Source of the DNA: Natrinema thermotolerans DSM 11552
GTDB taxonomy: Archaea > Halobacteriota > Halobacteria > Halobacteriales > Natrialbaceae
DNA: 64,000 bases
NCBI GenBank assembly: GCA_000337115.1
Contig: AOIR01000059.1
Span: 173,653 to 237,652, forward strand
Direction: 5' to 3'
Shown here: positions 6,730-33,838 of the stretch, one piece after another
Position numbering within the stretch: the stretch's first letter is position 1
Layout of the letters: every line of letters starts with the position of its first letter
Program-made: the position numbers and the translations under genes
Notes under the pieces: generated by a model
Told to the model about the DNA's origin: nothing
Seen by the model: the letters and a program-made list of their open reading frames with translations, nothing else
Database searches by the model: none

Positions 6730-6854
6730 AGGGGTGTGTATGGACGCGGGCGGGTTTCCGCTTGCCGATCCGTTTCGACGGTTCGTTCTGACCGATAGTC
6801 GATCGGTGGAACCGTATCCCGACGGAATTGCCGCGGCGAGAATTCGGGGGAAGC

Positions 6855-7053
6855 GTTCTGCTATCGTGGCAACAGGGAACGGCCACGCCCTCCCCAGCCG
6901 ATTTCTGCTCACGGGCGCGCAGCGCCCGTTCGCATGGTTCGCGGAACCTTCGGTTCCGCGCTAACGCTCGCGAAGCTCGCTCACTCATCCCTCGCACGAT
7001 GTCATCGATCCGCCCTCACTGGCGTTCGGACGGATCGACAGCGCGCGCCACCG
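6855..7053. repeat. Dispersed structured repeat, copy A (199 bp)
   Basis: It shares with copy B (33522-33661) the head GTTCTGCTAT, GTGGCAACAGGGA and GCCACGCCCTCCCCAGCCGATT, the middle block CTCACTCATCCCTCGC and the tail CAGCGCGCGCCACCG, in the same order. GTGGC and GCCAC in the head can pair. Copy A carries about 60 extra bp with two perfect 8-bp hairpins with 3-nt loops (6911-6929 and 6941-6959). No transposase or convincing ORF is present. It separates rnhA from its partner gene, so it probably inserted into an operon. Confidence 0.75.
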
Positions 7054-7093
7054 TAGATCGCCCGGTCGGGCCGATACGATGTATCGTGTGGAG

Positions 7094-29971: not shown

Positions 29972-30036
29972 ACGGTTTCCTGTGAGTCATTACCGGCGCA
30001 ACCGCCGCCCGGGCGGCGGTTGTGCCGGGAAACCGT
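29972..30036 (+). repeat. Long inverted repeat between archease and rtcB
   Basis: Inner arms 29993-30010 and 30011-30028 pair at 17 of 18 positions plus one G-U, with CCCGGG at the centre. Outer arms ACGGTTTC (29972-29979) and GAAACCGT (30029-30036) pair perfectly, leaving a 13-nt bulge on the 5' side. It begins 2 bp after the archease stop and may be a terminator, processing site or cruciform. Confidence 0.7.
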
Positions 30037-30164
30037 TACAGCAATCCGTCTGACCAGTGGCCGATCGATTCCGTCCGCGAACCGCCGTGATCGGACGGTG
30101 AGACGGACTCTCGAGGTCGCTGGCAAGACGAACATCTTTCATCGCCGGGGTCGGATGCTCGGGT

Positions 30165-33502: not shown

Positions 33503-33521
33503 ACGGAGTACTCGAGGAGGT

Positions 33522-33661
33522 GTTCTGCTATTGTGGCAACAGGGAGTAGCCACGCCCTCCCCAGCCGATTCGTTCGTTCCCGTTGGTCACTCACTCATCC
33601 CTCGCGCAGTATCGACGGTCGCCCTCGCTAGCGCTCGGTCGACCCTCAGCGCGCGCCACCG
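33522..33661. repeat. Dispersed structured repeat, copy B (140 bp)
   Basis: Same head, middle and tail blocks as copy A at 6855-7053, in the same orientation on this strand, but without the ~60-bp hairpin cassette. The GTGGC/GCCAC pairing in the head is kept although the loop bases differ. It lies between moaA and the tRNA-Ser gene. The rest of the 33423-33926 gap holds only the direct repeat and the tRNA promoter. Confidence 0.75.
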
Positions 33662-33838
33662 CGTAGCGGGTGATTAGTCCAGTCGACGGACCGAAGGACA
33701 TGTGTCGCCCCCTCCCGATAGTCCGGGAAACAGAGCGCCGTATTTACGACGACTGGTCCTACTGTGGTCGGTTCTCTATCCGCTGCTCGGTCGATTCCGT
33801 GCGAGCGCATCGCATACGAACCGGCCGCCTTTCGTTGC

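Follow-up and report, generated by a model that had tools for sequence, protein, structure and literature searches.

The window analysed here, a stretch of 64,000 nucleotides from Natrinema thermotolerans DSM 11552, carries two copies of a dispersed repeat, both assigned to the minus strand, which share head, middle and tail blocks in identical order, as described in the initial annotation. With the conserved flanks included, copy A spans 6851–7054 and copy B spans 33518–33663. Copy A, delimited by a genome search with this copy and by its minus-strand RNA fold, belongs to a long subtype with a cassette, and copy B, delimited from sequence and fold, to a short subtype of ~130 nt. In copy A, the 3′ end of the minus strand, GATAGCAGAACGCTT (6851–6865), at which a pyrimidine tract begins, is a flank conserved in 34 and in 111 copies. 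The adjoining head hairpin, GTGGC...GCCAC (6866–6886, no strand assigned), is an alternative to a closing stem, in which the GTGGC of the minus-strand 5′ end can pair with the complement of 6866–6870. The G-rich conserved block, AATCGGCTGGGGAGGGCGTGGC on the minus strand (6882–6903), is nearly invariant in alignments and is found across the order. The extra cassette reported for copy A is indeed present, measures 66 nt (6904–6969) and contains two perfect 3-nt-loop hairpins at 6912–6928 and 6941–6959; seven or eight other copies share it, and orthologous copies gain or lose such cassettes at the same site. Alignment of the copies places the rest of the middle arm and the CTCATCCCTCGCACG block at 6970–6998, and compensatory-change analysis places the tail hairpin, with covarying stem, GA tandem and 4-nt apex, at 7005–7038 and, together with the fold, the minus-strand 5′ end ACGGTGGCGCGCGCTG at 7039–7054. 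The corresponding parts of copy B are the head hairpin (33533–33553, no strand assigned), the G-rich conserved block (33549–33570, from the alignment of copies), the middle hairpin with tandem GA mismatches between covarying pairs (33567–33599), the tail hairpin (33617–33644) and the minus-strand 5′ block CGCGGTGGCGCGCGCTG (33647–33663). The middle and tail hairpins of copy B were defined by compensatory changes and fold, its head hairpin and 5′ block from the sequence.

Read on the plus strand, the element starts with the complement of the pyrimidine tract and CTGCTATC, continues with the head hairpin, the block CCCTCCCCARCCGATT and a variable middle arm, and ends with the block CTCATCCCTCGCRC, a variable tail arm and GCGCGCGCCACCGCA. 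Across copies the unit length is 130–250 nt. On the minus strand the middle arm reads GAT-GA-GC-GA-NN-loop-NN-GA-GC-GA-ATC, that is, two-pair blocks alternating with tandem G·A mismatches, which turn into pyrimidine mismatches if the plus strand is read. The tail arm comprises a stem of 8–10 pairs, a GA tandem, two further pairs and a 4-nt apex. The predicted minus-strand fold would consist of a constant stem joining both ends, the tail arm, the middle arm and the G-rich conserved block, with optional hairpin cassettes going in at fixed points of this architecture. The conserved G tracts make a G-quadruplex in the element possible. At locus L248 of genome G134, what appears to be a tandem repetition of the element's 3′ end (AATAGCAGGACGCTTCAGTTCA) follows downstream.

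Compensatory stem changes, the mark of a structured RNA, were found against both shuffled and slid controls. Among 27 minus-strand copies, 18 of the 29 modelled pairs were altered on both sides; 95 cells had compensatory change compared with 30 in shuffles and 5–17 in slid controls, and none of the 500 shuffles scored as high. Selection for structure had been suggested earlier from the GTGGC/GCCAC pairing of the head. The suggestion holds for the middle and tail hairpins, which covary, and fails for the head stem, where compensatory change was looked for in every pair and none was seen. In this stem GTGG/CCAC is nearly constant and the fifth pair is often broken; since no pair shows compensatory change, the earlier observation that the loop varies and the pairing stays does not amount to covariation here, and the head hairpin was ruled out as a selected stem. 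Compensatory change was also sought, and none seen, in a hairpin of the G-rich block (GGGGAG with CUCCC of the head) that forms in one fold only, and an additional stem of CGCGC (5′ end) with GYGCG is plausible but finds no support in double changes. The minus-strand RNA of copy A folds at −102 kcal/mol (z −3.6 against shuffles), and the fold of copy B is unexceptional (z −0.9). As the same hairpins can form although their letters vary between copies, it is suggested that the fold itself is kept.

Compensatory change by itself is blind to strand, and strand-asymmetric signs were therefore sought. In the middle arm of 141 sequences, anchored without alignment, 22 G·U against 5 A·C were counted on the minus strand (binomial p 0.0015 if the events are independent, which they are not fully, because orthologous copies are among the sequences). 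The apices on this strand are mostly GNA and GNNA, a pyrimidine-rich stretch lies 3′ of it (T 26–57% at positions 6–13 versus 23% farther out), and its fold energy was lower than that of the plus strand in 60 of 60 copies. The excess of G·U over A·C, the conserved tandem GA mismatches and the 3′ pyrimidine tract point to the minus, G-rich strand as the one that folds, and not the plus strand as read originally; selection acts on a strand-specific fold. GNA and GNNA apices are stable in DNA too. The strand evidence applies to RNA and single-stranded DNA alike, since GNA triloops and GA tandems stabilise the latter also.

The expectation of further copies in this and related genomes was borne out by a genome search and by a pattern search across the order. 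With copy A as query, 74 matching pieces were obtained in its own genome, down to E = 1e-106, and the head-hairpin pattern gave 37 matches against 1 for the reversed-pattern control, well above what chance would give. Full-length copies that could be extracted number 36 to 37, and the total is about 37–40; the exact number is uncertain by a few because single N letters look like assembly joins at repeat copies. Such N letters, flanked by repeated element sequence, were seen at C32:71.9–72.2 kb, C55:161.4–161.7 kb and C64:102.1–102.5 kb. Of 293 genomes sampled across the order, 124 have the head motif (control near zero), from 0 to ~90 per genome with 100 in one congener, and model matches, with 11 candidates scored per genome, were found in 145 of the 293. 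The ends of the element vary from one family of the order to another. Pattern matches within the genus number 0–3 in nine species and 7–100 in the remaining ones; as these nine are essentially without copies, the family is dispensable. In three examined genomes of another genus, g41, a copy lies between two genes which we take, from their N-terminal sequences, to be thiolase-like and aspartate-aminotransferase-like.

The copies are biased towards sites between convergent genes, which hold 15 of 36 copies compared with ~12–15% of intergenic space (p = 1e-4; 33 of the 275 intergenic regions measuring 150 nt or more are convergent). Genes were called with a simple codon model of our own, checked against a few genes of the window. 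The tail-side neighbour reads toward the element in 22 of the 36 copies, stopping 11–93 nt from the tail, and is not oriented into it in the other 14. Judged from N-termini, the neighbours appear diverse, which argues against a gene-specific riboswitch. No common promoter upstream of the 5′ end was evident by eye. The distribution is also biased to the chromosome: in four Natrinema congeners with extra replicons, the copies among the matches listed were all on the main chromosome, and the listing was complete for G300 (91 of 91) and G302 (51 of 51). In G134, of another genus, some copies lie on a second contig. Inverted pairs are a further regular trait. All 16 close pairs listed in three genomes were head-to-head, where about one close pair in any orientation is expected by chance, and in two such pairs the interior is inverted between species.

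Locus comparisons between species agree with the earlier view that recent copying is not involved; the copies are old, vertically inherited and stable in position. At locus A the element is common to many congeners, and the clearest case of absence is G150, which lost the copy by deletion between TCGAC repeats (microhomology) with a tail scar left behind. At locus B, intact copies are present in the own genome and in G249 and a decayed copy in G179. In the compared blocks of G150, G249 and G179, all comparable sites are occupied in each. The conserved blocks evolve slowly: their identity between orthologues is 95.0%, biased somewhat upward as copies were found via their blocks, against 90.8% for nearby, mostly coding DNA and ~80% for adjacent intergenic DNA. 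Gene conversion between copies could contribute to the block identity. The cassettes turn over: at a given locus, one species has a cassette of 60–70 nt at the fixed site and another species lacks it. At the locus A orthologue of G302 (L131), ~1.1 kb including an acetyltransferase-like frame lies between head and tail of the element, and a second, weaker model match lies beside the interrupted element. The family would have spread by amplification in ancestors and would now persist mainly by descent.

Instead of RNA, the active form could be single-stranded DNA or a duplex bound by protein. Absence of a transposase within the repeat was confirmed, and the earlier idea of a non-autonomous element, in the sense of one that is mobile at present, is not supported: there were no empty sites in the compared blocks, no target duplications and no link to Y1 enzymes. 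A selfish non-autonomous element that a Y1 enzyme (IS200/IS605 or RAYT-like) would move in single-stranded form, with hairpins recognised in DNA and REPIN-like pairs, would account for one-strand folding with GNA triloops, for the inverted pairs and for copy numbers that differ widely between congeners. We regard it as quite unlikely, because the transposase is absent from G024, G047, G179, G299, G303 and G306, which hold 26–100 copies each, and is found in genomes almost without copies, G159 and G296 among them; close species show no empty sites in the blocks compared, the extra replicons of the four congeners lack the element, and a hypervariable stem would hardly serve for recognition. The lack of a PF01797 (Y1 transposase) match in several many-copy genomes of the genus speaks of present-day presence only. 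As copy number and the transposase do not go together in the genus, a Y1-driven element of the PATE or RAYT-linked REPIN type was rejected. A classical TIR-type MITE, moved in trans by a DDE transposase, is highly improbable: it would fit the partly complementary ends (TGC/GCA, GTGGC/GCCAC) and the numerous intergenic copies of 130–250 nt, but flanking direct repeats in 34 copies were no longer than in shuffled flanks, no filled-versus-empty pairs were found in the compared blocks of G150, G249 and G179, and the ends vary between families of the order. It was rejected for want of target duplications. A phage origin was set aside with no phage match and one viral contig by pattern, and a plasmid origin with three plasmid records, the best of them 987 kb long and bearing moaA and ribosomal protein genes. 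A separate element of ~80 nt with CTATAGTAGCC...GGCTACTATAG ends was observed in the spacer of an inverted pair in G249 (L215) and G179 (L224), at 89.4 and 19.2 kb of the joined blocks, and in L011 downstream of its plus-strand repeat copy; it looks like a recently moved MITE, as G150 is empty at the same place. The window also has adjacent inverted 39-nt arms at 29972–30049, 77% complementary with zero spacer.

An unlikely explanation is a BIME-like element of chromosomal DNA organisation or recombination, where a protein would bind the conserved blocks singly or as head-to-head pairs and act on supercoiling, folding or segregation. Confinement to the main chromosome in four congeners, positions conserved between species, inverted pairs with interiors inverted between species and neighbours diverse in kind all agree with it, but some congeners lack the family altogether, and the G·U bias and the pyrimidine tract suggest that one single strand is read.

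No Rfam family scored above the gathering cut-off at the copies or in loci of other lineages, and a copy of a known RNA family was dismissed, Rfam giving nothing reliable. No published description of the family was found in the open-access literature, subscription papers being outside the search. As in repeats of the BOX, ERIC and BIME kind, copies are many, non-coding and intergenic, with modular hairpins and an excess between convergent genes. ERIC/IRU elements are about 127 nt long and intergenic, with internal insertions at set points; compared by description, the haloarchaeal repeat resembles them in length, intergenic place and set-point insertions and differs in taxon. The IS605-derived PATE/MITE elements of haloarchaea are small, non-coding and hairpin-bearing, as is our repeat, which differs from them in that it does not co-occur with Y1, leaves no site of the compared blocks empty and, in the four genomes checked, lies on the chromosome only. 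The terms for such elements occur in PMC3119063. BOX of Streptococcus pneumoniae is modular, structured and intergenic, with ancient spread, slow current insertion and a convergent-gene excess (PMC3049150). The haloarchaeal repeat is likewise modular, structured, intergenic and convergent-biased with slow insertion, but it is archaeal, the compensatory changes of its stems belong to a single strand that can be identified and has tandem GA arms, and its cassettes are hairpins at several fixed sites. BOX is therefore the closest known kind in behaviour, an analogy which claims no family membership, no sequence relation being established. REP/BIME and REPINs are extragenic, palindromic and mosaic, in inverted pairs with units of 20–40 nt (PMC3116915); the haloarchaeal repeat shares these traits except that its units are 130–250 nt, no RAYT link was found and Y1 does not covary with copy number in the genus.

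The repeat belongs to an apparently undescribed family in the intergenic DNA of haloarchaeal chromosomes. It is probable that these modular, structured, interspersed repeats form a new family in archaea, one that works in the manner of BOX/ERIC/BIME and probably functions as a folded 3′-end RNA. The minus-strand RNA would most likely form a structured transcript end. The fold would act in RNA form, in most cases as the structured 3′ end of a transcript from a gene that stops 11–93 nt ahead of it, and would set the position of the transcript end or its stability. A small-RNA gene or a transcription-boundary element, both proposed earlier, may also describe the copies. More tentatively, the family may represent an undescribed structured-RNA class widespread in Halobacteria (145 of 293 genomes), with tens of chromosomal copies at transcript ends and a trans-acting reader, of which the single conserved copies in some genera are perhaps the original form.

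BOX, ERIC and BIME, known mainly from bacteria, influence how transcripts end and how chromosomes behave. A counterpart in haloarchaea that has strong compensatory change, reaches 100 copies in a genome and is lacking from the extra replicons checked would be a ready test system. Its apparently single-copy form in one genus, between the thiolase-like and aspartate-aminotransferase-like genes, would be a clean deletion target, and annotators could recognise intergenic DNA that is blank today.
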